Shown here: one piece after another, positions 17,321 through 32,906 of the stretch
Position numbering within the stretch: the first letter of the stretch is position 1
Layout of the letters: each line of letters opens with the position of its first letter
NCBI RefSeq assembly: GCF_014205165.1
Contig: NZ_JACHMZ010000001.1
Span: forward strand, 4,694,501 to 4,758,500
DNA length: 64,000 bases
Direction: 5' to 3'
Source: Micromonospora carbonacea
GTDB taxonomy: Bacteria > Actinomycetota > Actinomycetes > Mycobacteriales > Micromonosporaceae
Notes under the pieces: model-generated
Databases searched by the model: none
What the model was told of the DNA's origin: nothing
What the model saw: only the letters and a program-made list of their open reading frames with translations
Translations under genes and position numbers: made by a program

Positions 17321-20300
17321 TGGCGTCGGCGACCTCGGTGGCGGTGGTGCCGAGGAGCCGGGCGTGCAGGTGCGCGGCGAGCAGCTCCGGGGTGGGGTGG
17401 TTGAACACGGCGTGCGGGGCGAGCCGGACGCCGGTGGCGGCGGAGAGCCGGTTGCTCAGCTCCACGGCCATCAGCGAGTCGAAGCCGAGGTCCTTGAACG
17501 GGCGGCGCGGCTCGATCTGCTCGCCGCCGGCGTGTCCGACGACGGTGGCGCACCGGGCGCGCACCAGGTCGAGCAGCGCGGCGGCCCGTTCGGGTTCGGT
17601 GCGGCCGGCGAGCCGGTCGGCGAAGCCGGCGGCGGAGGCGGGCGCGGGGTCGGCGTTGACGGCCCGGCGCGGCGGCGGGGGCAGCAGGGCCCGCAGCAGG
17701 GCGGGCACCTCCCCGGCGGCGCGGACGGCGGCCAGGTCCAGGCCGATCGGCACCAGCGCGGGCCGGTCGGCGTGCAGGGCGGCGTCGAACAGGGCCAGGC
17801 CGGCGGCGGTGTCCAGGGGGCGGGTGCCGCCCCGGGCGAGACGGGCCAGGTCGGCGGCGGTGAGCGCGCCGGCCATCCCCTCCGGCGTGGCCCACAGGCC
17901 CCAGGCGAGGGCGGTGGCGGGCAGGCCGTGGGCGCGGCGGTGCGCGGCGAGGGCGTCGAGGAACGCGTTGCCGGCGGCGTAGTTGCCCTGCCCGGGGCTG
18001 CCGAACACGGCCGACGCGGAGGAGAACAGCACGAACGCGGCCAGGTCGAGGCCGGCGGTCAGCTCGTGCAGGTGCCACGCGCCGTGCACCTTGGACCGCA
18101 GGGCCCGCTCCCAGCGGGCGGCGTCGAGGCCGGTGAGCAGGGCGTCGTCGGTGGCCCCGGCGGCGTGCACGACGGCGGTGAGCCGGCCGGCGAGCGGGGC
18201 GAGCACCGCGGCGAGGGCGGCCCGGTCGGCGACGTCGGCGGCGACGACCCGCACGGTCGTCCCGGCGGCGGTGAGCGCGTCCATCCAGTCGGCATGCCGG
18301 CCGGTCCGGCTGACCAGCACCAGCTCGGCGACGCCGTGGACGGTGGCGAGGTGGGTGGCGACGTGCCGGCCGATCCCGCCGGTGCCGCCGGTGACGAGGA
18401 CGGTCCCGCCGGCCAGCGCGGGCAGCGGCCCGGCGGCGGTCGGGCCGGCCGGCAGCGAACCGGGAGCGGTCAAGCCGGCCGCCGGCAGCGGGCCGGGAGC
18501 GGTCGCCGGCAGCGGCCCTGCGGCGGGCGCGGGCGCGGGCGCGCCACCGGTCGGGGCCGGGGGCGGCGGGCCGGCGGCGGGGGGCTCGACGGGGCGCAGC
18601 CGGGGCAGCAGGGCCCGGCCGTCGCGGACGGCGACCTCCGGCTCGTCGGGGCCGGCGGCCAGGGCCGTGCGGATCCCCGCGTCGTCGGCCGCGTCGAGGC
18701 GCAGCAGCAGGAACCGGTCGGGGTGCTCGGCCTGGGCGACGCGGACCAGCCCGGCGACGGTCGCGTGCGCGGGGTCGCCGTCGCGGACGGCCACCGCCAG
18801 CCGGGTGCCCTCGGCGCGGGGGTCGGCCAGCCAGCGCTGGAGCACGCCGAGGGTGTCCAGGCCGGCGGCGTGCGCCCGGTCGGGCACCGGGGCGGCCGGG
18901 TCACCGTCGCCGACCCGCAGCACCAGCAGCGGCGGCAGCGGGCCGGCGGGCGGCGCGCCGTCGGCGAGCGCCCAGGCGGGCACCGGCGTCGCCGGGGCGG
19001 CGGCGGGCAGCCACTCCACGGCGTACAGGCCGGCGGGGGCGGTCGGGGCGGGGGCCGGGCCGGCGGGGACCGGGGCGGTCACGGCGCGCAGCACCACCCG
19101 CTCCGCGTCGAGCACGGGTGCGCCGGCGTCGTCGACGGCGGACAGGGTGACCGCGTCGGCCCCGGCGGGGGCCAGCACGACCCGCAGGGCGTGCGCGCCG
19201 GTGGCGTGCACCCGCACGCCCGCCCAGTCGGTCGCGGTCGGCCGGGCCGCCCCGGCGGCGGGGGCGAAGCCGGCGAGCGGGAGCAGGCGCAGGGCCGCGT
19301 CCAGCACCAGCGGGTGCACCGCGTACCGCTCGGCGTCGGCGTCCCGGGCGTCCTCCGGCAGGCGTACGTCGACGCAGAGCCGGTCCCCCGCGACCCAGGC
19401 GGCCCGGGCCAAGTCGCCGGCGAGCGCCCGCCGCTGCGGGGTGTCCAGGTCGACGGGCCGGGCCCCGGTGGGCGGCCACACCGCCGGCGCGGCGGCTGCG
19501 GGCTGGTGGTCGGCGGGGGCGAGGACGGCCTCGGCGACCTCCCGCCACGGCTGGCCGTCGGCGGCGCGCACGTGGCAGCGGGCCACCCGGCGCGGGTGCT
19601 CGTCGGGCGCGTCAACGGTGACCTGCACGTCGACGGAGAGGCCGGCGGGCAGCGGCACCGGCGCGGGGACGCGCAGCCGCTCGACGGTGGGCAGGTCGAG
19701 CAGCACGCCGAGGTGCGCGAACAGGTCCAGCAGGGCGGTGGCGGGCAGCAGCGCCGGCCCGTCGGCGTCGGGCGCGACGAGCCACGGGTGGGTGGCGGCG
19801 GCGACCCGGCCGGTGCAGACGACCTGGCCGGTGCCGGCGACGGGCAGCACCGCGCCGAGCAGCGGGTGCCCGGCGTCGGCCAGCCCCACGTCGGCCGGCC
19901 CGCCGGCCACCGCCGAGTACGGCAGCCAGTAGTGCCGGCGCTGGAACGCGTAGGTGGGCAGGTCGACCCGGCGGCGCGGCCCGGGGCCGGCGACGACGGC
20001 GGGGTCCACGGCGACGCCGCGCACGTGCAGCCGCGCCACGGCGGCGACCAGCGCGTCCGGTTCGCCGTCGACGGTCCGCACGGCCGGCACGAAGGCCAGC
20101 TCGTCGGCGGTGTCGTCGGCGAGGCAGTCCTGGGCCATCGCGGTGAGCACCCCGCCGGGGCCGACCTCCAGGAACGTGGTGACCCCCAGCCCGCGCAGGG
20201 CGCGCATCCCGTCGAGGAAGCGGACGGTGCCGCGCACGTGGTCCACCCAGTGCTCCGGCGAGCAGAGCCGGGCCGGGTCGACCGGCCGACCGGTCAGGTT

Positions 20301-23300
20301 GGACACCACGGGCAGGTGCGGGGTGCGGTAGGTGAGGCCGGCGGCCACGGCGCGGAACGCGTCGAGCATCGGCTCCATGCGCGGCGAGTGGAACGCGTGC
20401 GACACCCGCAGCCGGCTGGTGCGCCGGCCGGCGGCGCGCAGGGTCGCGGCGGCGGCCAGCACCGCGTCGGTGTCGCCGGAGAGGACGACGCTGCGCGGCC
20501 CGTTGACGGCGGCGAGGCCCACCCGGTCGGTGAGGTGGGCGGCCACCTCCGCCTCGTCGGCCTCCACGGCGACCATCGCGCCGCCGTCGGGGAGCTGCTG
20601 CATCAGCCGGGCGCGGGCGGCCACCAGCGCCGCCGCGTCCGCGAGGGAGAACACCCCGGCGACGTGCGCGGCGGCCAGCTCGCCGACGGAGTGGCCGAGC
20701 AGCGCGTCGGGGCGGACGCCCCAGGACTCCAGCAGCCGGTGGAGGGCCACCTCGAAGGCGAACAGGGCCGGCTGGGTGTAGAGGGTGTCGTCGAGCCGGG
20801 CGGCGAGGTCGCTGCCGTCGGCGGCGGCGACCACGTCGGCGACGGGGTGCGGGGCGTGCCCGGCGAGGCAGCGGTCCAGCTCGGCGCAGGCGGCGTCGAA
20901 CGCCTCCGCGAAGACCGGGTACGCGGCCCGCAGCCCGCGGCCCATCCGGGGGCGCTGGCCGCCCTGCCCGCCGAAGAGCAGGCCGAGCCGGCCGTCGACG
21001 ACGCGGCCGGTCAGCACGGCGGCCGGGTCGGGTTCCGCCTCGCCCCGGGTCAGCGCGGTCAGCCCGGCGCGGGCGGTGGTCGGGTCGCCGGCCAGCACCA
21101 CGGCCCGGTGCTCCAGGGCGGCGCGGGTGGTGGCCAGGGCGTGTCCGACGTCGGCGGGGTCGGCGTCCGCGCCGGGGCCGTCGAGCCAGGCGAGCAGGCG
21201 GGCCGCCTGGTCGCGCAGCGCCTCGCCGGTGGCGGCGGACAGCGGCCACGGCACCGGCCCGCGACGGGCGGCGTCGACGGCGGGCCCCGGGGCGGCGGTC
21301 TCCTCGTCGGCGGCGGGGGCCGCCTCGATGACGACGTGGGCGTTGGTGCCGCTGATGCCGAACGACGAGATGCCGGCCCGCCTCGGCCGGTCCACCGCCG
21401 GCCACGGGCGCGCCTCGGTGAGCAGCTCCACCGCGCCGCCGGCCCAGTCCACCTCGGACGTCGGGGCGTCCACGTGCAGGGTCGCCGGCAGCGTGCCGTG
21501 CCGCATGGCGAGGACCATCTTGATCACCCCGGCGGCCCCGGCGGCGGCCTGGGTGTGGCCGAGGTTCGACTTCAGCGAGCCCAGCCGCAGCGGCTCGGCG
21601 TCGCCACGCCCCGCCCCGTACGTGGCCAGCAGCGCCTGCGCCTCGATCGGGTCGCCGAGCCGGGTGCCGGTGCCGTGCGCCTCGACGGCGTCCACGTCGG
21701 CTCCGGTGAGCCCGGCGTTGGCGAGGGCGCGGCGGATGACCCGTTCCTGGGCGGGGCCGTTGGGGGCGGTCAGCCCGTTGGACGCCCCGTCGGAGTTGAC
21801 CGCGCTGCCGCGCAGCACGGCGAGCACCGGATGGCCGTTGCGGCGGGCGGCGGAGCGGCGTTCCAGCAGCAGCACGGCGACGCCCTCGGACCAGCCCGTG
21901 CCGTCGGCGGCGTCGGCGAACGCCTTGCACCGGCCGTCGGGGGCGAGCCCGCGCTGCCGGCTGAACTCGACGAACGCCTGCGGGGTGCCCATCACCGCCA
22001 CGCCGCCGGCGACCGCGAGGTCGCAGTCCCCGGCGCGCAACGCCTGGGCGGCCAGGTGCAGCGCCACCAGCGACGACGAGCAGGCCGTGTCCACGGTGAC
22101 CGCCGGCCCCTCCAGGCCCAGCGCGTACGCGACGCGGCCGGAGACGACGCTGCCGGCGGTGCCGACGCCCAGGTAGCCCTCGGTGCCGGGCGGGGCCTGG
22201 CGCAGGTTGGCGGCGTAGTCGTGGTGCATGACGCCGGTGAAGACGCCGGTGGCGCTGCCCCGCAGCGAGGTGGGGTCGATGCCGGCACGCTCGAACAGCT
22301 CCCAGGAGGTCTCCAGCAGCAGCCGCTGCTGCGGGTCCATGGCCAGGGCCTCGCGGGGGCTGATCGAGAACAGGGTGGCGTCGAAGTCCGCCGCGTCGGG
22401 CAGGAACCCGCCGACGCGCACGTACGAGGTGCCGGGAGCGTCGGGGTCGTCGGAGAACAGGTGCGCCAGGTCCCAGCCCCGGTCGGTGGGGAACCCGGTC
22501 AGCCCCTCCCGGCCCTCGGCGACCAGGTCCCACAGCTCCTGCGGGGAGCCCACCCCACCGGGCAGGCGGCAGGCCATCGCGACGATGACCACGGGATCGT
22601 CGGCGTCGGGCGCGGCGGCCGCCCCGGTCGGGGCGGCGGGGGCTCCCGGGCCGCCGCGCAGCCGGGCGGCGACGTGCCGGGCGAGGGCGTCGGGGCTCGG
22701 GTGGTCGAACGCGGCCGTGGCGGACAGCCGTACCCCGGTGGCCCGGGCCAGCCGGTCGCGCAGGGCGACCGCGCCGACGGAGGTGAAGCCCAGCTCCTTG
22801 AACGCGCGACCGGGGCGGACGGCGGCCGGGCCGGGCAGGCCGGCGACGTCGGCGGTGGCGGCGCGGACCAGGTCGAGCAGGAGCCGGTCGCCCTCGGCGG
22901 TGGTCAGGCCGGCGAGCCGGCGGCGCAGCTCGGCGGCGTCCGGCGCGTCGCCGGCCTCGCCGGCCGCACGGGCGGGGGGCCGCCAGGCCGGGTGGGGCGC
23001 GTCGGCCGGCACGGCGAGCAGCACGGGGTCGTCGCCGTCGTGGGCGACGTCGAAGGCGGCCAGGTCGGCGGCGGTCCCGCCCGCCGGGGCGGCGGCGTCG
23101 CCCGCGTGCGGCGGCGCGGCGGGGGCGACCGGCCGGCCGGCGGCGTCGGTCGGCTGCGCCGGCGCGGCGGGACCGGCCGACGGCGTGGATCCGGCCGGAT
23201 CGGCCCACGGCGCGGACAGGGCCGGGTCGGTCGTGCCGATCAGCCGGGCGGGCAGGCCCGCCGCGCGGCGGCGGGCGACGAGGGCGTGCAGGGCCGCCAC

Positions 23301-25970
23301 GGCCGCCGCCGCCCGCTCCCGGCCGGGCGCGCCGAGCAGCAGGGCTGCCGGGACGGCGACGGTGAACGCCGTGGCGGCGGCGTGCCGGGTCCGGGCGTCG
23401 AGCGCCTCGGCGGAGGCCAGCAGCGCGGCGACGGCGGCGTCGTCGGCGAGGTCGGCGGCGGAGGGGCAGAGCAGGACCGCACCGACCGGCCCGGCGGCGG
23501 GCGCGGCGTCGGTGGGCCCGGACCCGGCGTGGGTGTCGGCGGGCGCGGCGAACGCGGTGTCGGCGGGCGCGGAACCGGCATCGGCGGCGGCGTCCAGCGG
23601 GGTCACCGTCGCGCCCGCGTCGGTCAGGTCCGCGACGAGTCGCCGCAGGGCGGCGTCGTCGGTCGGGCCGGCGGGCGCCAGCAACAGCCGGCGGGCGCCG
23701 TGCGCGGCGACCAGGTGCCGGGCCAGCGCCGCACCGGTCGGCCCGTCGACCCCGGTCACCACCGCCGGGGCGGCCGGGTCGACCACCGTCGCCGGCAGGC
23801 GGGGCGCGCGGGCGGGGGCCGGGCCGAGAGCCGGGTGCCGGGCCGCGCCGGCGCGCAGCGCGACCTGCGCGACACCGGCGGCCACGGCCGCCGGCACCAG
23901 GGCCAGCGACAGGTCGTCGGCGTCTCGGTCGACAAGCACGACCCGGTCCGGGTACGCGGCGCGCAGGCAGCGCCCCCACGCCCACGCCGCCACGGCCGCC
24001 GGCACCAGGTCGGGGTCGTCGGGCCGGTCAGAAGTGGACGCGTCGACGGCGCCGGTGGTCAGCAGCGCCAGCCGGGTGCCGGCGTACCGGGCGTCGGCGA
24101 GCAGGTCGCCCAGCCGCCCGGCGAGGTCCGGCGGGTCGGCGACGCCGGCCGGCAGCAGCGCCACGTCGGGCGCGTCCGGGTCGTCGTCGAGGGCGGCGAG
24201 CTCGGGGTACGCCCGGAACACGTCGCCCGCCGAGGCCACGGCCAGCGCCTCGACGAGGGCCGCGCCGCCCGGCCCGACGACCGCCCAGCGGCGCGGCCCG
24301 GGGGCGAAGTCGGCGGCGGCGGGGTCGGCGGTGCTCTCCGCTGCGGCGGCGGCCAGGTCCAGCGGTTGCCAGGTGACCCGGCTCAGCGCCTCGTGGTGTC
24401 CCCCGTTGACGGCGCGCAGCCGGGCCGGCCGGGCCAGCAGCAGCCGGCGGGTGACCTTGCCGGACGCGGTGCGGGGCACCTGGTCGATCTCGTACAGCGC
24501 GTCGGGGACCTTGTAGTAGGACAGCCGCTCCCGGCAGGCCGCGTACGCGGCGGCGGGGTCGAACCCGTCGGGGCCGGGGACGACGAACGCCACCGGCACC
24601 TCGCCGAGCACCTCGTGCGGTCGGCCGGTGACCGCCACGTCGGCGACGCCGGGCACCGACCGCAGCGCCTCCTCCACCTCGGCCGGGTGGATCTTCTCGC
24701 CGCCCCGGATGATCAGCTCCTGGTGCCGGCCGGTGACGAAGAGGTTGCCGCCGGCGTCGCGGCGGGCCAGGTCCCCGGTGCGGTACCAGCCGTCGCGCAG
24801 CGCGGCGGCGGTCACCTCCGGCAGGCCGTGGTAGCCGAGCATCACGCTCGGGCCGCGTACCCACACCTCGCCCTCGCCGCCGACCGGGACGTCCACCCCG
24901 GTCTGCGGGCTGACCAGACGCACCTCGACGCCGGGCACGGGCTGCCCGCAGGAGCCCTCGACCCGGGGCCGGTCCGGCCGGGTGATCGCGATCGACCCGC
25001 AGGTCTCGGTGCTGCCGTACGCGTCGAGCAGCGGCGCGTCGAAGACCTCCTCGAACGCCCGACGCAGCGCCCCCGTGGTGATCGCCCCGCCGACCAGGCA
25101 CACCCGCAGGTCGGGGGCGCGGAAGCCGGTGCTGCGGGCGGCGGTGACCAGGTGGTGGTACATGGCGGGCACCCCGGCCAGCACCGTCGCGGAGTCCTCG
25201 GCGACGGCGGCCAGCACGTCGTCGGCGGAGAAGCCGTCGACGAGCCGGGCGCTCGCGCCGACCGCGGTGACGCTGAGCACGCAGCCGATGTGGGACAGGC
25301 TGTGGAACAGCGGCAGCGGCCACACGACCCGGTCGTCGCCGGTGAGGCCGGGGATCGGCACGTAGCAGGACGCCACCGACCACAGGCAGGTGCGCTGCGT
25401 GGAGAGCACGCCCTTGGGCCGGCCCGTCGTGCCCGAGGTGTAGAGCATCCAGGCGACCTCGTCGAGGCCCAGGTCGTCCCGGGCCGCCACGCCCGGGTCG
25501 GTGTCGACCAGCTCGCCCCAGGCGGCCACGGGTTCGCCGGGCACGCCGTCACCGGGCACGCCGTCGCCGGTGACCCAGAGGCGCAGGGCGGGGCGGTCGG
25601 CGCGCAGCCGCAGCAGCTGGTCGAGGTGTTCCGGGTCGGTGACGACCAGCACCGCGCCGGAGTCGTCCAGCAGGTGCGCCAGCTCCGCGTCGGTGCAGCG
25701 CGGGTTCAGCGGCACGCCGACCGCGGCGGCCCGGGTGACCGCCAGCCAGGTCTCGACCGTCTCCACCCGGTTGCCCAGACAGAACGCGACCCGCTCGCCC
25801 CGGCCCACCCCCGCCGCCGCCAGGTGCCCGGCCAGCCGGGCGGTACGCGCCGCCAGCTCGGCGTACCGGACCGCGCGGCGGTCGTCGCGGAACGCGACCC
25901 GGTCCCCGAACTCCTCCGCGTGCGCCCTCAGCAGACCGGGCAACGGCTGGACCAGGTCGCTCCGAAGCAT
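10782..25970 (-). CDS. AHBA-primed modular type I PKS: loading (A-KR0-ACP) + module 1 + module 2
   Basis: 5062 residues from ATG 25970. An in-frame upstream ATG at 26003 is possible, but MLRSDLVQPLPGLLRRH-like starts are typical of the ansamycin loading family. Domain order by approximate residue: A/CoA ligase 1-520, inactive KR-like 560-990, ACP Ser 1063; KS 1123-1545, AT 1655-1960, DH-like 2030-2300, KR 2510-2700, ACP Ser 2832; KS 2887-3310, AT 3425-3720, DH 3785-4050, ER 4290-4600, KR 4620-4820, ACP Ser 4940, then an acidic C-terminal docking tail. With AHBA genes next door, the starter is very probably 3-amino-5-hydroxybenzoate. Predicted intermediate after module 2: aryl-CH(OH)-CH2-CH2-CH(CH3)-CO-ACP. 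No thioesterase is fused, in keeping with ansamycins, where a separate amide synthase releases the chain. It is divergent from the SpaB_C-like/aminoDHQ synthase operon. Confidence 0.96.
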   Translation of the reverse strand: MLRSDLVQPLPGLLRAHAEEFGDRVAFRDDRRAVRYAELAARTARLAGHLAAAGVGRGERVAFCLGNRVETVETWLAVTRAAAVGVPLNPRCTDAELAHLLDDSGAVLVVTDPEHLDQLLRLRADRPALRLWVTGDGVPGDGVPGEPVAAWGELVDTDPGVAARDDLGLDEVAWMLYTSGTTGRPKGVLSTQRTCLWSVASCYVPIPGLTGDDRVVWPLPLFHSLSHIGCVLSVTAVGASARLVDGFSADDVLAAVAEDSATVLAGVPAMYHHLVTAARSTGFRAPDLRVCLVGGAITTGALRRAFEEVFDAPLLDAYGSTETCGSIAITRPDRPRVEGSCGQPVPGVEVRLVSPQTGVDVPVGGEGEVWVRGPSVMLGYHGLPEVTAAALRDGWYRTGDLARRDAGGNLFVTGRHQELIIRGGEKIHPAEVEEALRSVPGVADVAVTGRPHEVLGEVPVAFVVPGPDGFDPAAAYAACRERLSYYKVPDALYEIDQVPRTASGKVTRRLLLARPARLRAVNGGHHEALSRVTWQPLDLAAAAAESTADPAAADFAPGPRRWAVVGPGGAALVEALAVASAGDVFRAYPELAALDDDPDAPDVALLPAGVADPPDLAGRLGDLLADARYAGTRLALLTTGAVDASTSDRPDDPDLVPAAVAAWAWGRCLRAAYPDRVVLVDRDADDLSLALVPAAVAAGVAQVALRAGAARHPALGPAPARAPRLPATVVDPAAPAVVTGVDGPTGAALARHLVAAHGARRLLLAPAGPTDDAALRRLVADLTDAGATVTPLDAAADAGSAPADTAFAAPADTHAGSGPTDAAPAAGPVGAVLLCPSAADLADDAAVAALLASAEALDARTRHAAATAFTVAVPAALLLGAPGRERAAAAVAALHALVARRRAAGLPARLIGTTDPALSAPWADPAGSTPSAGPAAPAQPTDAAGRPVAPAAPPHAGDAAAPAGGTAADLAAFDVAHDGDDPVLLAVPADAPHPAWRPPARAAGEAGDAPDAAELRRRLAGLTTAEGDRLLLDLVRAATADVAGLPGPAAVRPGRAFKELGFTSVGAVALRDRLARATGVRLSATAAFDHPSPDALARHVAARLRGGPGAPAAPTGAAAAPDADDPVVIVAMACRLPGGVGSPQELWDLVAEGREGLTGFPTDRGWDLAHLFSDDPDAPGTSYVRVGGFLPDAADFDATLFSISPREALAMDPQQRLLLETSWELFERAGIDPTSLRGSATGVFTGVMHHDYAANLRQAPPGTEGYLGVGTAGSVVSGRVAYALGLEGPAVTVDTACSSSLVALHLAAQALRAGDCDLAVAGGVAVMGTPQAFVEFSRQRGLAPDGRCKAFADAADGTGWSEGVAVLLLERRSAARRNGHPVLAVLRGSAVNSDGASNGLTAPNGPAQERVIRRALANAGLTGADVDAVEAHGTGTRLGDPIEAQALLATYGAGRGDAEPLRLGSLKSNLGHTQAAAGAAGVIKMVLAMRHGTLPATLHVDAPTSEVDWAGGAVELLTEARPWPAVDRPRRAGISSFGISGTNAHVVIEAAPAADEETAAPGPAVDAARRGPVPWPLSAATGEALRDQAARLLAWLDGPGADADPADVGHALATTRAALEHRAVVLAGDPTTARAGLTALTRGEAEPDPAAVLTGRVVDGRLGLLFGGQGGQRPRMGRGLRAAYPVFAEAFDAACAELDRCLAGHAPHPVADVVAAADGSDLAARLDDTLYTQPALFAFEVALHRLLESWGVRPDALLGHSVGELAAAHVAGVFSLADAAALVAARARLMQQLPDGGAMVAVEADEAEVAAHLTDRVGLAAVNGPRSVVLSGDTDAVLAAAATLRAAGRRTSRLRVSHAFHSPRMEPMLDAFRAVAAGLTYRTPHLPVVSNLTGRPVDPARLCSPEHWVDHVRGTVRFLDGMRALRGLGVTTFLEVGPGGVLTAMAQDCLADDTADELAFVPAVRTVDGEPDALVAAVARLHVRGVAVDPAVVAGPGPRRRVDLPTYAFQRRHYWLPYSAVAGGPADVGLADAGHPLLGAVLPVAGTGQVVCTGRVAAATHPWLVAPDADGPALLPATALLDLFAHLGVLLDLPTVERLRVPAPVPLPAGLSVDVQVTVDAPDEHPRRVARCHVRAADGQPWREVAEAVLAPADHQPAAAAPAVWPPTGARPVDLDTPQRRALAGDLARAAWVAGDRLCVDVRLPEDARDADAERYAVHPLVLDAALRLLPLAGFAPAAGAARPTATDWAGVRVHATGAHALRVVLAPAGADAVTLSAVDDAGAPVLDAERVVLRAVTAPVPAGPAPAPTAPAGLYAVEWLPAAAPATPVPAWALADGAPPAGPLPPLLVLRVGDGDPAAPVPDRAHAAGLDTLGVLQRWLADPRAEGTRLAVAVRDGDPAHATVAGLVRVAQAEHPDRFLLLRLDAADDAGIRTALAAGPDEPEVAVRDGRALLPRLRPVEPPAAGPPPPAPTGGAPAPAPAAGPLPATAPGPLPAAGLTAPGSLPAGPTAAGPLPALAGGTVLVTGGTGGIGRHVATHLATVHGVAELVLVSRTGRHADWMDALTAAGTTVRVVAADVADRAALAAVLAPLAGRLTAVVHAAGATDDALLTGLDAARWERALRSKVHGAWHLHELTAGLDLAAFVLFSSASAVFGSPGQGNYAAGNAFLDALAAHRRAHGLPATALAWGLWATPEGMAGALTAADLARLARGGTRPLDTAAGLALFDAALHADRPALVPIGLDLAAVRAAGEVPALLRALLPPPPRRAVNADPAPASAAGFADRLAGRTEPERAAALLDLVRARCATVVGHAGGEQIEPRRPFKDLGFDSLMAVELSNRLSAATGVRLAPHAVFNHPTPELLAAHLHARLLGTTATEVADATTVAADEPVAVVAMACRFPGGIGSPEQLWRLLDDGGDVIGDLPTDRGWPDLYDPVPGTPGRTYVRSGGFLAGIADFDAAFFGISPREALAMDPQHRLLLETSWEALERAGIDPGTLRGSRTGVFAGTHGQDYTDRIAPGVASDDGETTADEGHLLTGTAASVLSGRVAYALGLEGPAVTVDTACSASLVALHLAAQALRAGDCDLALAGGVSVLSSPAGLTGFSRQRGLAADGRCKAFAEDADGFGMSEGVGVLVVERLSDARRRGHPVLALIRGTAVNSDGASNGLTAPNGPSQERVIRAALAAAGLTPADVDAVEAHGTGTPLGDPIEAEAILATYGQRPADAPPLLLGSVKSNLGHTQAAAGVAGVLKMVLAMRHGVLPRTLHAQQRTTRVDWAAGSVELLTEARPWPRADRPARAGISSFGISGTNAHVVVEAVAAEPQPDPAPPTDPAALPWLLSARSADALAGQARRLRDHLADHPDQPHRDVAWSLATTRAAFDSRAVVVAAEPDRVAAALDALAAGRPHPDLVRGDATAAGKAVFVFPGQGSQWPGMGLDLLDQAPVFAERMAACDAALRPHLGFSVLDVLRQAPGAPSLDRVDVVQPALFATMVSLAELWRSHGVRPAAVVGHSQGEIAAACVAGVLSLPDAAQVVALRSRAIRALAGHGAMASVALPADVVRDRIARHGDAVAVAAVNGPAAVVVSGAEAAVEEVLAELAADGARVRRIAVDYASHSAQVERIRADLAGALAGITPGPAAVPLFSTTDLRWLDGPELGPDYWYRNLRQPVELHRAVAELAALGHDTYVECSPHPVLTVGIAETLAEHDAPHVVVGSVQRDQGDRARFLLSAAQLHVRGVAVDWRPALAGGRRVDLPTYAFDHRRYWPRPATGPGDVGAAGLDAAGHPLLGASVALAEARGHLFTGRIAAGAPAWLADHRVGETVLVPGTGLVELCLRAGDEVGCPVLDELVIEAPLALPAAAQAPGTGPAEAAGTPGPGHAATQVQLTVGAPDDTGRRHVAVHSRPADAPPGTPWTRHASATLSAAPPAPPTGLTAWPPPHARPADLTGFYARLAADGYAYGPAFQGLRAVWTGDDEVYAEVELPAGQRADADRYNLHPALLDAALHAAHFGGIGDAGPDRLLLPFAWNGVALHAAGASALRVRLTRVAPHAIALTVADATGAPVAEVASLAMRPISRAELGTRDAAVDDALFRLDWQPLAAPETPAPARVVALGRAVGAFPHHADPAALARAVDGGAAPPDAVLAPLGGADAPAPAASKVPGASNVPGVPGASTGEPDRARAVAAEALAFVQAWLAEPRWAATPLVLLTRGAVGVHSPAEVDDPDAATAWGLVRAAQSEHPDRFVLLDADAPPTDAELTAVLAAAEPQVALRAGTPYAPRLARRVEAATLTPPAGATAWRLDTTARGSLENLTLAPTDAADAPLGPRDVRVRVRAAGLNFRDVLNALGLYPGDPGPPGGEAAGVVTEVGADVTDLRPGDRVLGVFVGCFGPVAVTDRRLLAPMPDGWTYAQAASVPVVFLTAYHGLVDLAGLRAGESVLVHAAAGGVGMAAVQLARHLGATVYATASPAKWPALRAMGIPDSHLASSRTLDFEPHFLATSGGRGVDVVLDSLAREFVDASLRLLPRGGRFVEMGKTDLRDPGRVAADHPGVAYQAYDLTAVDPDRIQRMLVELMGLFAAGKLTPLPVRAWDVRQAPDAFRHVQQARHVGKVVLTVPTPWDPAGTVLLTGGTGLLGGLVARRLVTGHGVRHLLLASRGGPDAPGAAELTAELTALGATVTVAAADVADRAAVARLVAAVPAERPLTAVVHLAGVLDDGVVTALTPDRLDTVFAPKVDAARHLDEATRHLDLAGFVLFSSGAGVFGVPGQGNYAAANAYLDALATRRRGAGLPAQSYAWGLWEQASAMTAKLDRADPRITARDGQLAIGTDLGMALFDAGLAAPEEHLVPTRVDVTALAGRATVPALMRGLVRRVRPRARAEAAAGGRDLADRLRALTAGEQSALLLDLVRAEAATVLGHASPDAVRPAQAFNEIGFDSLTAVELRNRLTEATGHRLPATAIFDYPDPTALAGFLRAQLVPDGGQAAPAILAELENLERSLAETVVEAELHTQVAARLEVLVAKWRTMRGASATDHDLDLDLDQASDDEIFSLIDTELGL
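17330..22610 (-). other. PKS module 1: KS-AT(malonyl)-DH0-KR-ACP
   Basis: KS has [14 protein letters not shown] and [10 protein letters not shown] has GHSVGE and HAFH, which predict malonyl-CoA. The DH-like segment lacks the catalytic His (WLVAPDADGPALLP where HxxxGxxxxP is expected) and has LDAALR where the second site normally ends in H or Q, so it should be inactive. KR has GTGGIG, TDD at the LDD position (B-type), and intact Ser, Tyr and Asn. Predicted outcome: a beta-hydroxy unit next to the aromatic ring. Confidence 0.85.
22640..25970 (-). other. Loading module: adenylation/CoA-ligase - degenerate KR - ACP
   Basis: The A domain shows A3 LYTSGTTGRPKG, A5 DAYGSTETCG, A7 YRTGDL and A10 PRTASGK, so it should activate an aryl acid. 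The following KR-like block keeps only a damaged nucleotide motif (TGVDGPTG) and has no recognisable Ser/Tyr/Asn triad; it also carries a Pro/Ala-rich stretch (about 23060-23240). The ACP has GFTS instead of GFDS around the phosphopantetheine Ser. A-KR0-ACP starters are the arrangement described for AHBA-loading ansamycin PKSs. Confidence 0.85.
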
Positions 25971-26065
25971 GTCACCATCCGTCCGCTCGGCGAGACTCCC
26001 CATCCGCGGCGTAGACCTCGCTCGCCGTAACGGCACAAGTCTTCCGAGGGCCGTGGCGGCGACCT

Positions 26066-26083
26066 ACCCCTGTCGCACCCCTA
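26066..26083. promoter_or_regulatory. Paired TAGGGGT/CAGGGGT boxes in the divergent promoter region of the loading PKS
   Basis: On the minus strand TAGGGGT (26083-26077) and CAGGGGT (26072-26066) are direct repeats 11 bp apart, one helical turn, pointing at the loading PKS gene. The 166-bp gap 25971-26136 between the PKS and the 26137 gene contains no other feature I can support. A -10 at the conserved 21-bp spacing is weak here (GAAGAC, 26044-26039). Confidence 0.45.
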
Positions 26084-26136
26084 ACCCGTCCCCAGTTCCG
26101 GCCGCCGATCGACCGGCGCGACCTGCGGCGGGGGCG

Positions 26137-27012
26137 ATGATGGGCGGGCCCGCGCAGACCGTCGTGCCCATGCCCCACCTTCCGTCAGTCGAGGTGTCGT
26201 CGTTGGAACGCTCGTGGTTGTTCGCCCGCCTGCCCGTGCCGGCCGGCGGCTGCCCGGACGCCGGGGCGGCCGAGCTGGTCGGCACCGTCGTCGCCGGGCT
26301 GGTCGCCGCCGTCCGCCGCGCCGACCCGGGGTCCGGCTGGTTCTACGACCGGCTCGGCCCCACCGGCGTCCCCGTCGCCCCGGCCGCCGGGCAGCGGCTG
26401 CGCCTCGGCTTCTGCGCGTCGGCGGCGGGGCTCGACGCGGTCCGGGCCGGGCTGCGCGCGTACGACCAGGGGTGTTTTCTGGTCGACGAGCCGCACGCGG
26501 TCCGCGACGCCGCCCGGGGTGGGCCCCTCGCGCAGGCCGGCAGCGACCTGGCGCTGGCCCTGCTCGCCGGGGACGGGCCGTGGCTGCCCGGCGCGGAGCT
26601 GCCGCTGGCCGTCGCGCACCTGCGGCACCTGGCCGGGCTGCTGCCGGCGGCCGACCGGCCGGCGTTCCTCTTCCTGCACTGGCAGGACCGTGCGACGGCG
26701 CTCACCGGGGCGCACCGGCGGGAACTGGCCGCGCAGGCCGCCGCCGGGGCGGACAAGATCGTCCTGACGGCGGGCGACCTGCCGCCGGGCGGGGCGGCCG
26801 GGGTCGCGTGGCGGCGCTACCTTGACCGGGTCGCCGACGTGGCCGGGCGGGACCACCCCGGCGCGCCGCGCGGCTTCCTGTTGGCCCACCACGCCCAGCT
26901 CAGCCACGACCGGTGGGGCATCGCGCCGGACGTCGACGCGCTGGCCGCGCTGGCGCTGCGGCTGACGCTGGTCCGCCGCCCCACCGGTGCAGAGGAGAAG
27001 ACAGCCACATGA
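26137..27012 (+). CDS. Stand-alone protein resembling the SpaB_C / thiopeptide-type domain of lantibiotic dehydratases
   Basis: 291 residues from ATG 26137 (GGCGGGGG just upstream); ATG 26170 is the alternative. The order of features follows the C-terminal elimination domain of LanB enzymes: an opening ERSWLFARL strand, GSGWFYDRLGP where the family has its WFF-R-Y-P block, QRLRLGF (HLRLRF in the family), then DEPHAVRDAARGGPLAQAG in place of the Glu/Tyr-GG-AMxxAE segment, and a C-terminal AHHAQLSHDRWGI resembling the HMHxNRLGI end block. The family includes glutamate-eliminating domains and the pyridine synthases of thiopeptides. No full-length LanB, LanC or precursor peptide is visible nearby. 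Its stop overlaps the start of the aminoDHQ synthase (ATGA at 27009-27012), so the two are translationally coupled and this protein probably belongs to the ansamycin pathway. The assignment is by eye and its function is unknown. Confidence 0.55.
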   Translation: MMGGPAQTVVPMPHLPSVEVSSLERSWLFARLPVPAGGCPDAGAAELVGTVVAGLVAAVRRADPGSGWFYDRLGPTGVPVAPAAGQRLRLGFCASAAGLDAVRAGLRAYDQGCFLVDEPHAVRDAARGGPLAQAGSDLALALLAGDGPWLPGAELPLAVAHLRHLAGLLPAADRPAFLFLHWQDRATALTGAHRRELAAQAAAGADKIVLTAGDLPPGGAAGVAWRRYLDRVADVAGRDHPGAPRGFLLAHHAQLSHDRWGIAPDVDALAALALRLTLVRRPTGAEEKTAT

Positions 27013-28019
27013 CGACGGAGCATCCCGCACGGATCGAGGTGGCGCTCGGCGAGCGCGCGTACCCGGTGCTGATCGGGCCGGGCGTGCGCCACCGCCTGCC
27101 GGCGGAGGTGGCGCGGATCGGCGCGCGGCGGGTCGTCGTGGTGTCGGCCCGGCCGCCGGAGTGGACGCCCGACCCGGGCGTGCCGCACCGGGTGGTGCCG
27201 GCCCGCGACGGCGAGCACGACAAGACCCTCGCCACGGTGGAGCACCTGTGCCGGGCGTTCGCCGAGTTCGGGCTGACCCGCACCGACGCGGTGGTCTCCT
27301 GCGGCGGCGGCACCACCACCGACGTGGTGGGGCTGGCCGCCGGCCTCTACCACCGGGGGATCGCCGTCATCCACCTGCCGACGTCGCTGCTGGCCCAGGT
27401 CGACGCCAGCGTCGGCGGGAAGACGGCGGTGAACCTGCCGGAGGGCAAGAACCTCGTCGGCGTCTACTGGCAGCCCCGCGCGGTGCTCTGCGACACCGAA
27501 CACCTGACGACCCTGCCGGAGCGGGAACGGCGCAACGGGTACGGGGAGATCGCCCGCGCCCACTTCATCGGCGCGGGCGACCTGCGCGGCCGGCCCGTCG
27601 CCGAGCAGATCGCCGCCTGCGTGGCGCTCAAGGCGCGGGTCGTCGCCGCCGACGAGCGCGACGGCGGGCTGCGGCACATCCTCAACTACGGCCACACCCT
27701 CGGGCACGCCCTGGAGGTCGCCACCGGCTTCCGGCTGCGCCACGGCGAGGCCGTCGGCGTCGGCACGGTCTTCGCGGGCCGGCTCGCCGGTGTCCTGGGC
27801 CGGATCGGCCCCGAGCGGGTCGCCGAGCACCGCGAGGTGGTCGCCGGCTACGGCCTGGACCCGGAGCTGCCCGCCGGGGTGGACCACGACGAGCTGGTCG
27901 CGCTCATGCGGCGCGACAAGAAGGCCACGGCGGGCCTGTCGTTCGTCCTCGACGGCCCGGCCGGGCCGGAGCTGGTGGCGGACGTCCCCCCGGAGGCCGT
28001 CCACACCGCACTGAGGTGA
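27009..28019 (+). CDS. rifG-like: Aminodehydroquinate synthase (RifG-like, AHBA pathway)
   Basis: 336 residues from ATG 27009, which overlaps the preceding stop, with GAGGAGAAG upstream. The dehydroquinate-synthase fold is clear: GGGTTTDVVGLAAGLYHRG near 95-113, PTSLLAQVDASVGGKT near 122-138, EGKNLVG, and the Zn-binding HILNYGHTLGHALE near 220-233. TTTDVVG in place of the VVGDLAG of housekeeping AroB, together with the neighbouring AHBA synthase, kinase and dehydroquinase genes, indicates the amino-variant enzyme. That enzyme converts aminoDAHP to 5-deoxy-5-amino-3-dehydroquinate. It is somewhat shorter than typical AroB (about 350-365). It could in principle serve primary shikimate metabolism, but no other aro gene accompanies it. 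Confidence 0.88.
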   Translation: MTTEHPARIEVALGERAYPVLIGPGVRHRLPAEVARIGARRVVVVSARPPEWTPDPGVPHRVVPARDGEHDKTLATVEHLCRAFAEFGLTRTDAVVSCGGGTTTDVVGLAAGLYHRGIAVIHLPTSLLAQVDASVGGKTAVNLPEGKNLVGVYWQPRAVLCDTEHLTTLPERERRNGYGEIARAHFIGAGDLRGRPVAEQIAACVALKARVVAADERDGGLRHILNYGHTLGHALEVATGFRLRHGEAVGVGTVFAGRLAGVLGRIGPERVAEHREVVAGYGLDPELPAGVDHDELVALMRRDKKATAGLSFVLDGPAGPELVADVPPEAVHTALR

Positions 28020-28120: not shown

Positions 28121-28856
28121 ATGCGACAAGAGGACATCTGGGACGCCGACGCCGCCGAGCGCTACGACACGCCGGGGGTCGGCATGTTCGCCCCCGAGGT
28201 GCTGGGGCCGACCGTCGACCGGCTCGCCACGCTCGCGGGCGACGGGGCGGCGCTGGAGTTCGCCGTCGGCACCGGCCGGGTGGCCGTGCCGCTCGCCGAG
28301 CGCGGGGTGCCCGTCACCGGCATCGAGCTGTCCACCGCCATGCTCGACAGGCTGCGGACCAAGGTGGACGAGGCCACGCTGCCCGTGGTCGTGGGGGACA
28401 TGGCCACCGCCGTCGCGCCGGGGGCGTACTCGCTCGTCTACCTGGTCTTCAACACGATCGCCAACCTGCTCACCCAGGCCGAGCAGGTCGCCTGCTTCCG
28501 CAACGCGGCCCGCCACCTCGGCCCGGGGGGGCCGGTTCGTGATCGAGCTTTGGGTGCCGGAGCTGCGCCAGCTCCCGCCGGGCCGGCAGGCCACGGTCTG
28601 GCACTGCGAGCCCGGCTACCTCGGCCTGGACACCTACGACGTGTTGCGTCAGCGCGTCGTGTCGCACCACTTCAGGTTCGGCGAGGGCACCGAGGCGCGC
28701 CTGTTCCGCACCCCGCACCGCTACGTCTGGCCGGCGGAGCTCGACCTGATGGCGCAGTTGGCCGGCTTCGAGCTGGAGTCGCGGCACGCGGACTGGGCCG
28801 GCGGCGAGTTCACCGCCGAGTCGCGCAGCCACGTGTCCGTATACCGGCTCCCCTGA
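28121..28856 (+). pseudogene. SAM-dependent methyltransferase with a +1 frameshift in a G-run
   Basis: The ATG at 28121 opens a class I methyltransferase: IWDADAAERYD, then motif I LEFAVGTGRVAVPLAERG at about 45-62, ELSTAMLDRL, and LVFNTIANL. The frame is lost in the run of seven Gs at about 28525-28531, where the family expects GPGGRFVIELWVPE. The expected continuation resumes in another frame at about 28539 and ends normally at 28856 with SRSHVSVYRLP. Removing one G restores a protein of about 244 residues. This is either a genuine mutation or a homopolymer sequencing error, and the otherwise intact second half favours a recent event or an error. Without repair the first frame runs on to 29248. 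The gene sits between two AHBA genes, but this methyltransferase type is widespread and its substrate is unknown. Confidence 0.8.
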
Positions 28857-29123: not shown

Positions 29124-29822
29124 TCAGGGGACCAGGGCCGCCGGGCAGTACGCCAGCAGGTCCGTCGGCGCGTGGGCGACCACGTCCGGGCCGGCGGCGA
29201 GCAGGGCGGCGACATCGCCGCCGTGCCAGGTGGTGGCGACCGTGGTGACGCCGGCGTCCCGGCCGCTGAGCAGGTCGATCACCGCGTCGCCGACCATCAT
29301 GGCCTGCTCCGGTGGCACGTCGAGGTGGCCCAGGGCGGCGAGGACGATGTCCGGGGCCGGCTTCGGCCGGGCCACCTCGTCGGAGCCGAGCACCCGGTCG
29401 AACAGGCCGAGCACGCCGAGCGTGTCGAGCAGCGAGCGGGCCCGGGGGCCGCTCTTGCCGGTGGCGATGGCCATCCGGACGCCCCGGCCGTGCAGCTCCT
29501 CCAGGGTCTGGCGTACGCCGGGGAACAGCGGCACCAGGTGCGCCATCCGGTAGCTCTCCCGGACGAACGGCTCCTCCATCTCCAGCGGCAGCCCCATCAG
29601 CCGCATGATGTCCGGGAAGTACCGGCCCATGTGCCGGTTGTACTCCTCGAACGGCGCGGGCCCGTCCCCCACCACCTCGGCGTACGCGATGCTGAACGCC
29701 TCGCGCATGACGGCCGAGCTGTCGACCACGACGCCGTCGAGGTCGAACACGACCGCGCGGATCGGGCCCCGGGCGGACGGCGGCGGGAGGGTGACGTCGA
29801 CGGTGGACGGTGGATGGGTCAT
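29124..29822 (-). CDS. rifM-like: HAD-family phosphatase (RifM-like, AHBA pathway)
   Basis: 232 residues from ATG 29822, with GGGGAGC 6 bp upstream. It is a haloacid-dehalogenase phosphatase of the CbbY/Gph type: motif 1 VVFDLDGVVVDS near residues 24-35 (nucleophile and acid/base Asp), motif 2 IATGKSG, motif 3 Lys in RPKPAPD and motif 4 VGDAVIDLLSG. In the AHBA pathway RifM, together with RifL and RifK, is needed to form kanosamine from UDP-glucose. The gene lies 37 bp after rifL-like and is the third gene of the rifK-rifL-rifM operon. Its identity as RifM rests on this conserved order plus the fold; the phosphatase signature alone would not distinguish it from phosphoglycolate phosphatase. 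Confidence 0.88.
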   Translation of the reverse strand: MTHPPSTVDVTLPPPSARGPIRAVVFDLDGVVVDSSAVMREAFSIAYAEVVGDGPAPFEEYNRHMGRYFPDIMRLMGLPLEMEEPFVRESYRMAHLVPLFPGVRQTLEELHGRGVRMAIATGKSGPRARSLLDTLGVLGLFDRVLGSDEVARPKPAPDIVLAALGHLDVPPEQAMMVGDAVIDLLSGRDAGVTTVATTWHGGDVAALLAAGPDVVAHAPTDLLAYCPAALVP

Positions 29823-29859: not shown

Positions 29860-31047
29860 TCACCGGTCGCGTTGGCCCGCCAGCGCGTGCTCCCGCTCCG
29901 GCTCGGTGGGCCGGGCGGTGCGGTAGATCCGTTCGATGATGTCGATGGTGCGGTGTGCCTCGGCGACGGCCGCGCCCCGGCTGGCCGGTGCGGCGAGCAG
30001 GTCGGGCAGGGCGTCGAGCTGGCGGTCGTACTCGGCGCCGATCGGCTCGGTGGGCAGCGGCAGCGCGACGGTCCGGCCGTCGCGGGTGCGGGTGAGCACC
30101 GGCGTCGGCTCCCGGTTCGGGCTGAACCCGAACGTGCAGCGCAGGGTGGCCGTGCCGGCGACGCCGTGCACGGTGATGGTGGTGCGGTCCAGCGCCTCGT
30201 GCGACGCCCAGCAGGCGTGCACGGCGACGGACGCCCCGTCGGCGGTGAGCAGGAATCCCCGGGCGGTGTCCTCGACGTCGCCCCGCGACCCGCCGACCGA
30301 ACCGTCGCCCCGTGGCGCGGCTGCGGCACCGACGGAACCGGCGGGGTCGCGCCAGACGGCGTGCGCGGCGGCGTCGTTGACGAAGTCGGCGGAGACGCTG
30401 CCGACGGCGTGGGTGATGCGGGTGGCCGGGCCGAGCAGCGGCAGCACCGTGTCGAGCAGGTGCCAGCCGAGGTCGACGAGCGCGCCGCCGCCGGAGAGGT
30501 CGCGGCGGGTGAACCAGCCGCCCGCGTCGGGCACCCCCCGGGCGCGGACCCACGCCACGTCGACGTGCCGGATCGGGCCGAGTCCGGCGGCGGCGTCGGC
30601 GAGGGCCCGCACGTCGGCGCGCCACCGGGCGGCGCTGCCCGCGAGCAGCACCGCGCCGCCGGCGCGCTCCGCGTCGGCCAGCAGCGTCGCCTCGGCGGCG
30701 CTGAGGCAGACGGGCTTCTCCAGGAACACGGGTACGCCCCGGCGCAGCAGCCGGGCGGCGACGGCGGCGTGCAGGTGGTTGGGCACGGCCACCACCACCA
30801 GGTCCGCCGCGCCGACGGGCAGGTCGTCGACGTCGGCGTACGCGAAGGGCACCGCGTGGGTGTCGCGGGCGGTGTCCCGGACGGCCGGCTGGGGGTCGAC
30901 CAGGGCCGTCACCTCGAACGCCGGGTGCGCGGCGAGCCGGGGCAGCCAGATCTCCCGCCCGGCCCAGCCGAGGCCGACCACGGCGATCCGGATGGGGCCG
31001 CCGGGCGGCACGGCGACGCCGGAGACGGCCGGCGGCGGGGTGGTCAT
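29860..31047 (-). CDS. rifL-like: Gfo/Idh/MocA oxidoreductase (RifL-like, AHBA pathway)
   Basis: 395 residues from ATG 31047, which overlaps the rifK-like stop as ATGA (31044-31047). The N-terminal NAD(P)-binding Rossmann motif VVGLGWAGR is near residue 22, EKPVCLS near residue 105 contains the family's catalytic Lys, and GGGALVDLGWHLLD near residue 195 carries the conserved catalytic-site Asp/His. In the rifamycin pathway RifL is the dehydrogenase partner of RifK, proposed to make the 3-keto nucleotide sugar that RifK then aminates. An Ala/Gly-rich insertion (about 245-270) makes it a little longer than typical relatives. The tight coupling to the aminotransferase supports the assignment. 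Confidence 0.9.
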   Translation of the reverse strand: MTTPPPAVSGVAVPPGGPIRIAVVGLGWAGREIWLPRLAAHPAFEVTALVDPQPAVRDTARDTHAVPFAYADVDDLPVGAADLVVVAVPNHLHAAVAARLLRRGVPVFLEKPVCLSAAEATLLADAERAGGAVLLAGSAARWRADVRALADAAAGLGPIRHVDVAWVRARGVPDAGGWFTRRDLSGGGALVDLGWHLLDTVLPLLGPATRITHAVGSVSADFVNDAAAHAVWRDPAGSVGAAAAPRGDGSVGGSRGDVEDTARGFLLTADGASVAVHACWASHEALDRTTITVHGVAGTATLRCTFGFSPNREPTPVLTRTRDGRTVALPLPTEPIGAEYDRQLDALPDLLAAPASRGAAVAEAHRTIDIIERIYRTARPTEPEREHALAGQRDR

Positions 31048-32207
31048 CCGGCGAGGACGTCGGCCAGCACGGCGGCGATGTCGTGCATCTGCTGTTCGGT
31101 GCCGAGCAGGGTGCGGTGGTGCAGCCAGACGCAGTCGGAGTGGATCTGCTCGACGTTGGGGCAGCGGGCGGCGATCTGCTCGACGGTCTCGTCGGGGGCG
31201 CCGGCCTTCCAGAACCCCTCGCACCGGTAGATGGCCCGGAACGCCACGAACGCGGGCACGCCCCGGGCGATGAGCGCGTCGACCACGGCGCGGCGACGCT
31301 CCGGGGTGATCCCCGGGATGCGGAACATGGCCATGTAGTGCGGGTTGCGGTCGGTGCGCGGGTCGATGGTCTGCGGGACGACGCCGGGGATCTCGGCGAG
31401 CAGCCCGGCCAGCAGCGGCCAGCGCTGCTCGCGTACGTCGATCTGGCCGGCGAGGCGGGCGAGTTGCGCGCGCAGCACGGCGGCGGTGAACTCGCCCATC
31501 CGGTAGTTGGAGCCGGTGGTGCGGTGCAGGTAGTCGCGGTCGGTGCGCGGCCGGCCGCAGCTGTGCACGAGGAAGGCGCGCTCGCGGGTCTCCTCGTCGG
31601 GGAAGAGCACCGCGCCGCCCTCGCCGGCGGTCATCAGCTTGCCGTTCTGGAAGCTGAACGCGGCGATCGAGCCGAGCTCGCCGACCCGGCGGCCCTGCCA
31701 CTGCGCGCCGTGGGCGTGCGCGGCGTCCTGGAGCAGCGCCACCCCGGCGTCGGCGGCGATCTTGTCGAGCGCGTCCATGTCGGCGAACTGCCCGGCCATG
31801 TGCACCGGCATGATCACCTTGGTGCGGTCGGTGACGGCGGCGGCGACGGCGGCCGGGTCGACGCAGTAGGTGTCGAGGTCGACGTCGACCGGCACGGCGA
31901 CCGCGCCGAGGCGCTGCGCCGCGAGCGACGACGAGATGAAGGTGAAGGCCGGGACGATGACCTCGGTGCCGGGCCCGACGCCGAGCACCTCGAGGGCCAC
32001 CTCCAGGGCGTGGGTGCCGTTGGTGACGGCGAGGGCGTGCGGGGTGCCGTGGTACGCCCCGAACTCCGCCTCGAAGGTGTCGACCTCGCTCCCGCCCATC
32101 CGCCACCACTGGCCCTGTTCGAGGGCGCGGATCAGGCCGGCTCGTTCCTCGTCACCGAACTGCGGCCACTCGGGGAACTCCGGCACCGTCGACGGCTGAC
32201 CACTCAT
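31044..32207 (-). CDS. rifK-like: 3-amino-5-hydroxybenzoate (AHBA) synthase, PLP-dependent
   Basis: 387 residues, the length of known AHBA synthases. It is a DegT/DnrJ/EryC1 aminotransferase-fold protein with the PLP-Lys in FQNGKLMTAGEGG near residue 188, a motif essentially diagnostic for AHBA synthases. Other matching segments are GTHALEVAL, QDAAHAHGA and HSCGRPR. The enzyme aromatises 5-amino-5-deoxy-3-dehydroshikimate to AHBA and, in complex with RifL, also acts as the transaminase that makes the kanosamine precursor. It is first in an operon with rifL- and rifM-like genes, reading away from the dehydroquinase. The upstream TAGGGG-type promoter suggests control together with the PKS genes. 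This gene is the best single marker that the cluster makes an AHBA-derived product. Confidence 0.97.
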   Translation of the reverse strand: MSGQPSTVPEFPEWPQFGDEERAGLIRALEQGQWWRMGGSEVDTFEAEFGAYHGTPHALAVTNGTHALEVALEVLGVGPGTEVIVPAFTFISSSLAAQRLGAVAVPVDVDLDTYCVDPAAVAAAVTDRTKVIMPVHMAGQFADMDALDKIAADAGVALLQDAAHAHGAQWQGRRVGELGSIAAFSFQNGKLMTAGEGGAVLFPDEETRERAFLVHSCGRPRTDRDYLHRTTGSNYRMGEFTAAVLRAQLARLAGQIDVREQRWPLLAGLLAEIPGVVPQTIDPRTDRNPHYMAMFRIPGITPERRRAVVDALIARGVPAFVAFRAIYRCEGFWKAGAPDETVEQIAARCPNVEQIHSDCVWLHHRTLLGTEQQMHDIAAVLADVLAG

Positions 32208-32474: not shown

Positions 32475-32906
32475 GTGTCCGACGTGCTCCTGCTGAACGG
32501 CCCGAACCTGGGCATCCTCGGTCGACGCCAGCCGGAGATCTACGGCACCGACACCCTCGCCGACATCGAGCGGGCGGTCGGCGAGGAGGTCGCCGCGCGG
32601 GGCTGGAACGTGGTGGCCGTCCAGCACGACTGCGAGGGCGCGCTGGTGCGCACGGTGCAGGAGCACTACGACACGGTGGGCGCGATCGTGAACCCGGGGG
32701 CGTTGATGATCGCGGGCTGGAGCCTGCGCGACGCCCTCGCCAACTACCCCCGGCCGTGGATGGAGGTCCACCTGTCCAACGTGTGGGCCCGGGAGAGCTT
32801 CCGGCACGACTCGGTGCTCGCCCCGCTGGCCAGCGGGGTCATCGTCGGGCTCGGCCCGCTGGGCTACCGGCTGGCGGCCCGCGCCCTCGTCGCCACGGTC
32901 GGCTGA
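32475..32906 (+). CDS. rifJ-like: Type II 3-dehydroquinate dehydratase (RifJ-like, aminoDHQ dehydratase)
   Basis: 143 residues from GTG 32475, with GAGGTGAG 3-4 bp upstream. Type II dehydroquinase motifs are all present: LLNGPNLGILGRRQPEIYG at the N-terminus with the active-site Tyr and Arg, VNPGAL near residue 74, and EVHLSN with the catalytic His near residue 98. RESFRH near residue 106 takes the place of the usual REEFRH. In AHBA biosynthesis this enzyme dehydrates aminoDHQ to aminodehydroshikimate. It is divergent from AHBA synthase and followed by a DoxX-like gene and the ROK kinase, so it probably forms the start of a small operon. A housekeeping AroQ role cannot be excluded from sequence alone. 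Confidence 0.9.
   Translation: MSDVLLLNGPNLGILGRRQPEIYGTDTLADIERAVGEEVAARGWNVVAVQHDCEGALVRTVQEHYDTVGAIVNPGALMIAGWSLRDALANYPRPWMEVHLSNVWARESFRHDSVLAPLASGVIVGLGPLGYRLAARALVATVG

Follow-up and report, generated by a model that had tools for sequence, protein, structure and literature searches.

The protein encoded at positions 26137–27012 (+ strand) of the 64,000-nucleotide stretch of Micromonospora carbonacea DNA analysed here (the window) is, by profile comparison, a stand-alone and strongly divergent member of the SpaB_C superfamily (Lant_dehydr_C, PF14028). Its gene directly precedes that for aminoDHQ synthase in a cluster for AHBA, the starter unit of ansamycins, and its family has lost residues that NisB-type domains use for glutamate elimination. 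Together, these features suggest that a descendant of a RiPP dehydration enzyme acquired a new role in the synthesis of this starter unit. The reading we favor, with a probability of roughly 0.4, is that the protein is a recruited, non-eliminating accessory partner of aminoDHQ synthase, which could hold or pass on intermediates of the pathway.

The open reading frame is confirmed as real. Within an open frame spanning 25501–27012 on the + strand, translation from ATG 26137 yields 291 residues; ATG 26170 and GTG 26194 are alternative starts, and the choice among the three is uncertain because several relatives can begin solely near 26194–26203. The sequence blocks on which the original prediction based its SpaB_C assignment (WFYDRLGP, QRLRLGF, RGGPLAQAG and HHAQLSHDRWGI) occur in the protein in that order. 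The TGA stop codon (27010–27012) overlaps the ATG (27009) of the following DHQ synthase-family gene as ATGA at 27009–27012, and the gene is, as had been proposed, stand-alone and coupled to aminoDHQ synthase.

The AHBA setting was also correctly recognized, as profile matches to the core genes and a PKS with an AMP-binding-like start indicate. The downstream partner (27009–28019, + strand; 336 residues) is an aminoDHQ synthase of the RifG type, matching PF01761 (E = 2e-41) and PF24621 (E = 1.5e-30), with an aroB-like match below cut-off. Three genes on the − strand follow: a RifM-type HAD phosphatase (29124–29822; NCBIfam TIGR01454, AHBA_synth_RP, 334.8 bits versus a cut-off of 246.65 bits), a RifL-type Gfo/Idh/MocA oxidoreductase (29860–31047; PF01408) and a RifK-type AHBA synthase of the DegT aminotransferase family (31044–32186; PF01041, E = 4.1e-116), which served as the query in our surveys. 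Beyond these, on the + strand, are a RifJ-type type II DHQ dehydratase (32475–32906; PF01220, with NF003807 over its cut-off) and a RifN-type ROK kinase (33325–34329; PF00480). Divergent from the SpaB_C gene, a type I PKS occupies 10782–25970 on the − strand and begins with an AMP-binding-like loading domain, as judged from the gene call and its translation, with domains assigned by eye. PKS frames continue for ~40 kb beyond the left edge of the window, interrupted by a single other gene, and the idea of a pentaketide-ansamycin marker is unsupported. RifG-, J-, K-, L-, M- and N-type genes are common to this cluster and to rifamycin-type AHBA gene sets, whereas the SpaB_C gene is additional, and no RifH (type II DAHP synthase) was found near the AHBA cluster of the window genome. 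The two type II DAHP synthases of this genome lie ~3.2 Mb and ~0.9 Mb from the cluster. The second (G000:C1:5652972) shares 41–49% identity in its C-terminal part with DAHP synthases of other AHBA regions; given its distance of ~0.9 Mb and its different neighborhood, we ruled it out as RifH.

Searched alone, the window protein has no match to the Pfam SpaB_C profile PF14028 at E ≤ 10 and none in NCBIfam or in PDB sequences; its superfamily membership emerges from its relatives and from profile–profile comparison. Among ten family members scanned with PF14028, three exceed the curated cut-off of 24.4 bits (L009, 50.1 bits, E = 5.4e-13; L165, 31.1 bits, and L167, 28.0 bits, the latter two with E-values of 3.5e-7 and 3.1e-6), and three more (L003, L026 and L030) reach E < 1e-3 below the cut-off; L034, L037 and L038, the last present in part only, have no match. 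Moreover, hhalign aligns the family profile with SpaB_C, the family of the NisB elimination domain, over its full length (242 columns) with a Prob of 95.9 and a one-on-one E-value of 6.3e-9, compared with Prob values of 0.03–0.33 for 20 column-shuffled control profiles. The predicted SpaB_C assignment is thus upheld, with the qualification that relatives and profiles detect it and the single sequence does not. A PDB profile search with the family returned no SpaB_C entry, and a PDB sequence search with the relative L164, discussed below, returned MadB (E = 1.6e-4) and NisB (E = 0.25). Structural comparison gives a similarly mixed answer: near the top of the rankings from Foldseek and VIA stand NisB; MadB, TsrL, NisB, an aza-cyclase and MibB; and TbtD and MibB, so that both NisB and TbtD, the predicted counterparts, appear there, yet both AlphaFold models used as queries are of low confidence (pLDDT 45.9 and 51.7) and, for this reason, we draw no residue claim from them. 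The family keeps the Ser of the DS motif in 31/34 members and the Arg of the C-terminal NR motif in 34/34, the latter being conserved in all 65 aligned rows. By contrast with the SpaB_C domains of LanB proteins, its members stand alone in an AHBA/PKS operon, and their YxPE segment is missing or altered.

Equivalence to the domains that remove glutamate in lanthipeptide dehydratases or build pyridines in thiopeptides, as originally proposed, is not borne out by a joint alignment of 34 family members with 31 other SpaB_C domains. Residue counts omit L007 and L008 (an ambiguous base and a partial copy, respectively) and include the copy from genome G157 as L169; NisB numbers, including E823, were placed on the alignment motifs in a way that fits the spacing. 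Arg at the R786 column is present in 0/34 members and 29/31 other domains. Glu at E823 (0/34 versus 29/31) and Arg at R826 (0/34 versus 18/31) are likewise lost from the family, with the caveat that alignment near these two columns is uncertain, as this segment is shorter in most members. His at H961 occurs in two members (L165 and L166) and 20/31 others, with Gln in 28 members, and Arg at R784 in 13/34 versus 29/31. Taken alone, the losses at H961 and R826 are indecisive because 11 and 13, respectively, of the 31 other SpaB_C rows show the same lack. PMC4979651 reports that NisB variants R786A, R826A and H961A carry out glutamylation without elimination; PMC4341554 reports that H961A abolishes dehydration and that R784A decreases it only slightly. 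Because the residues used for it are lost, glutamate elimination is most likely gone from the family.

The genomic context points the same way. LanB is absent around the gene, as had been claimed, and the Lant_dehydr_N glutamylation domain that accompanies NisB-type elimination lies far off, the nearest Lant_dehydr_N and Lant_dehydr_C matches in the genome, the protein itself excepted, being ~1.5 Mb away. Thiopeptide pyridine synthases (TbtD, TsrL-type proteins and [4+2] aza-cyclases) differ from the window protein, which has no neighboring LanB by profile search of the window; inspection of the window's gene calls by eye revealed no precursor peptide, YcaO or cyclase gene. For TIGR03891, the best of five members scores 27.9 bits against a cut-off of 48.45 bits, and the other four have no match. 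A separate region of the same genome (G000:C1:2673989-2678208) contains two adjoining Lant_dehydr_N matches in frames of >2000 aa, with no Lant_dehydr_C among the matches listed nearby; these frames may be overlong and read through gene borders.

What the family has kept is distinctive. W27, H161, W182, Q183, R194, R259 and R275 are invariant in 34/34 members, whose identity to the window protein falls to about 30%, and His is found at both 252 and 257 in 33/34. H161 occurs in 3/31 other SpaB_C rows, R275 in 17/31 and R259 in all. The gene is under purifying selection (dN/dS 0.21–0.58, below 1 in 11/11 chosen pairs), mostly weaker than that on its aminoDHQ synthase partner (0.03–0.22).

Phylogeny offers a possible source for the protein. 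Sixteen family members form one clade on a long branch (support 100), and the nearest of 31 outside rows is L164, from genome G785, contig C41 (support 99). Like the window protein, L164 is encoded by a stand-alone gene of similar size; in contrast to the family, it is a canonical SpaB_C protein that keeps the equivalents of R784, R786, E823 and H961 and resides in a thiocillin-like/TOMM RiPP cluster, with a Lant_dehydr_N protein (making a split LanB), a SagD-type YcaO, a SagB dehydrogenase and two thiocillin-type precursor peptides as neighbors. The ranking of L164 as nearest relative carries a sampling bias, since the family's own profile was used to find it and outside rows were few, which makes L164 a lead on the origin, short of proof. 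From these sequence comparisons, the family was probably recruited once, from the elimination subunit of a RiPP split LanB into the aminoshikimate (AHBA) module.

Linkage to AHBA genes is conserved well beyond the window, as had been anticipated. We count 36 distinct AHBA-linked loci in Micromonosporaceae, actinobacterial family f21 and one Streptomyces plasmid, and in 36/36 the gene lies directly upstream of, and on the same strand as, aminoDHQ synthase. Of 354 genomes surveyed in the family to which the window's genome belongs, 30 are carriers, all of them among the 42 with an AHBA synthase (E ≤ 1e-120). A class sample of 394 genomes yielded at least 3 carriers, with 3/3 among the 25 that have an AHBA synthase, and 229 genomes from the family of G475 yielded at least 6 matches, five of them in genomes that belong to the 19 with an AHBA synthase; the sixth is L164. 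These surveys overlap in genomes (G000 and G234, for example), and distant copies may be missed because the profile searches scored only part of the candidates in each genome. Four draft assemblies (G186, G245, G157 and G201) have the AHBA synthase on a different contig from the SpaB_C gene.

The gene is nonetheless a subset trait, since 31 AHBA regions with an aminoDHQ synthase have no copy; counts of AHBA regions exclude duplicate rows (L002=L091, L005=L099, L006=L044, L103=L118). Only one of 11 Streptomyces plasmids with an AHBA synthase (71–77% identity) carries it, and on a 63-row tree of aminoDHQ synthases the presence/absence label needs at least six changes, of which well-supported branches force two. 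The two frames overlap in 21/31 loci measured and show no plain overlap in 10/31. Micromonospora rubida goes further: the SpaB_C gene and aminoDHQ synthase (L006 10001–12070) form a single open frame with no stop between them, because what was the stop now lies out of frame, and a ribosome-binding site and ATG are still present. On its other side, the gene is flanked variously by PKS, RifH or ROK kinase genes. Gene order kept in all 36 loci, combined with dN/dS below 1 in every chosen pair, indicates more than chance. Because the constant neighbor is a precursor gene while the other side alternates, the tailoring or condensation step considered in the original prediction is disfavored.

How might such a protein assist AHBA synthesis? 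According to PMC8788734, aminoDHQ synthase acts just after an imino-sugar condensation. By analogy with this pathway chemistry, a protein made in step with the synthase from a bicistronic message could act as its dedicated, non-catalytic partner, presumably in physical contact with it, and could hold or channel labile amino-sugar intermediates (imino-E4P/aminoDAHP to aminoDHQ), with a possible effect on AHBA supply. An accessory partner is favored because the presence of the SpaB_C gene coincides neither with the loss of a core AHBA gene nor with a corresponding change in the synthase. The idea that it replaces a core gene was rejected: RifG, J, K, L and M occur in carriers wherever the sequence analyzed extends to them, and RifN occurs in most; RifH is present in carriers G155, G475, G879 and G908, G338 has a gene that looks RifI-like by eye, and AHBA regions lacking the SpaB_C gene have a similar gene content. 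We likewise rejected the idea that it makes up for a defective aminoDHQ synthase: the synthase alignment has 116 columns invariant in 62/62 rows, and the lineages are told apart by a single weak column. With no clear residue difference between clusters with and without the gene, aminoDHQ synthase seems able to work alone.

The evidence for an accessory partner has to be weighed against other readings. It is extremely improbable that the protein has an unrelated fold with chance likeness to SpaB_C motifs: the silence of PF14028, NCBIfam and PDB sequence searches with the window protein, the PDB profile search and the low pLDDT values would fit such a fold, but three members pass a curated cut-off, the hhalign match far exceeds its shuffled controls, NCBI annotation of a Streptomyces homologue agrees, and so do the Foldseek and VIA rankings. 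We consider it very unlikely that SpaB_C chemistry, whether glutamate elimination or cycloaddition/aromatization, is retained on an AHBA-derived or peptidyl substrate with a LanB supplied from elsewhere in the genome. Common superfamily membership, LanB-type loci elsewhere in the window genome and the His kept by L165 and L166 are compatible with retained chemistry; the missing R786, E823 and R826 equivalents, in light of the NisB variants, and a window free of LanB are not, and PF14028 matches nothing in carrier genomes G231 and G093, which therefore yielded no standard LanB C-domain. A translational-coupling or regulatory leader gene, setting the dose of aminoDHQ synthase while its protein does little, would explain why the gene comes first in the pair, often overlaps its partner and mostly evolves faster. 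The purifying selection, the seven residues invariant among members as distant as ~30% identity and the loci without plain overlap all oppose a leader gene, which we regard as improbable.

A stronger competitor to the accessory-partner reading, still on the unlikely side in our estimation, is an enzyme with a remodeled active site acting on an aminoshikimate intermediate or on AHBA itself, for example in kanosamine 6-phosphate isomerization or amine handling. H161, Q183, His252 and His257, polar residues that the family conserves and that few other SpaB_C rows share, might form a new active site and not an interface, and the strict linkage to AHBA genes is what a pathway enzyme would show. Moreover, the accessible text of PMC8788734 names a kanosamine 6-phosphate isomerase without assigning it to a rif gene. 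If so, a RiPP dehydratase fold may have been rewired into a small-molecule enzyme for an amino-sugar or aminoDHQ intermediate, with a site built from H161, Q183, H252, H257 and the ancestral R259, a specific version that we hold to be doubtful. By contrast, the 31 AHBA regions that have aminoDHQ synthase and no copy imply that any such step is optional or otherwise catalyzed there; dN/dS mostly exceeds that of the partner, and no core gene is missing in step.

More broadly, if the proposed recruitment is true, the LanB elimination fold, used for peptide dehydration and pyridine formation, has been taken into another metabolism and, should the small-molecule enzyme reading be true, this would be, to our knowledge, the first SpaB_C protein outside peptide chemistry. 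Because it travels with aminoDHQ synthase in some AHBA clusters, the gene also provides a direct handle on the imino-sugar steps from kanosamine 6-phosphate to aminoDHQ, the least defined part of the pathway as we understand it and as the accessible part of PMC8788734 presents it. We found no SpaB_C- or lantibiotic-dehydratase-like gene tied to an AHBA cluster in the open PMC literature searched, including passages of papers that mention both AHBA and lantibiotics and the accessible parts of PMC13000494 and PMC13302746. The fold is already known; within the literature searched, neither its occurrence in an AHBA setting nor the loss of its active site has a precedent.

Several other features of these clusters deserve mention. 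Right after aminoDHQ synthase in the window, a methyltransferase-like gene (28121–28856, recognized by eye) is broken by a frame change, whereas its relatives in L091 and L094 are each one uninterrupted frame. Between the DHQ dehydratase and ROK kinase genes, 32966–33319 encodes a DoxX-like small membrane protein, which recurs in the Micromonospora-clade regions that span this stretch and in G338. After the AHBA genes, 34424–36213 holds a gene for a MEDS-domain protein that matches STAS weakly, then a second gene resembling it, whose ATPase-like tail was recognized by eye. Elsewhere, the RifL-type oxidoreductase and RifM-type phosphatase are joined in one frame in G475 (L104 10491–12248, 585 aa) and G155 (L085 11065–12795, 576 aa), and a further HAD-like gene of G155 lies at L085 15688–16362. 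Finally, Micromonospora halophytica, the host of locus L003 and is a producer of the ansamycin halomicin according to PMC5765111; its genome, apparently G186, carries AHBA synthase at two loci, with 94% and 73% identity to that of the window, and its SpaB_C gene may thus belong to the halomicin cluster.
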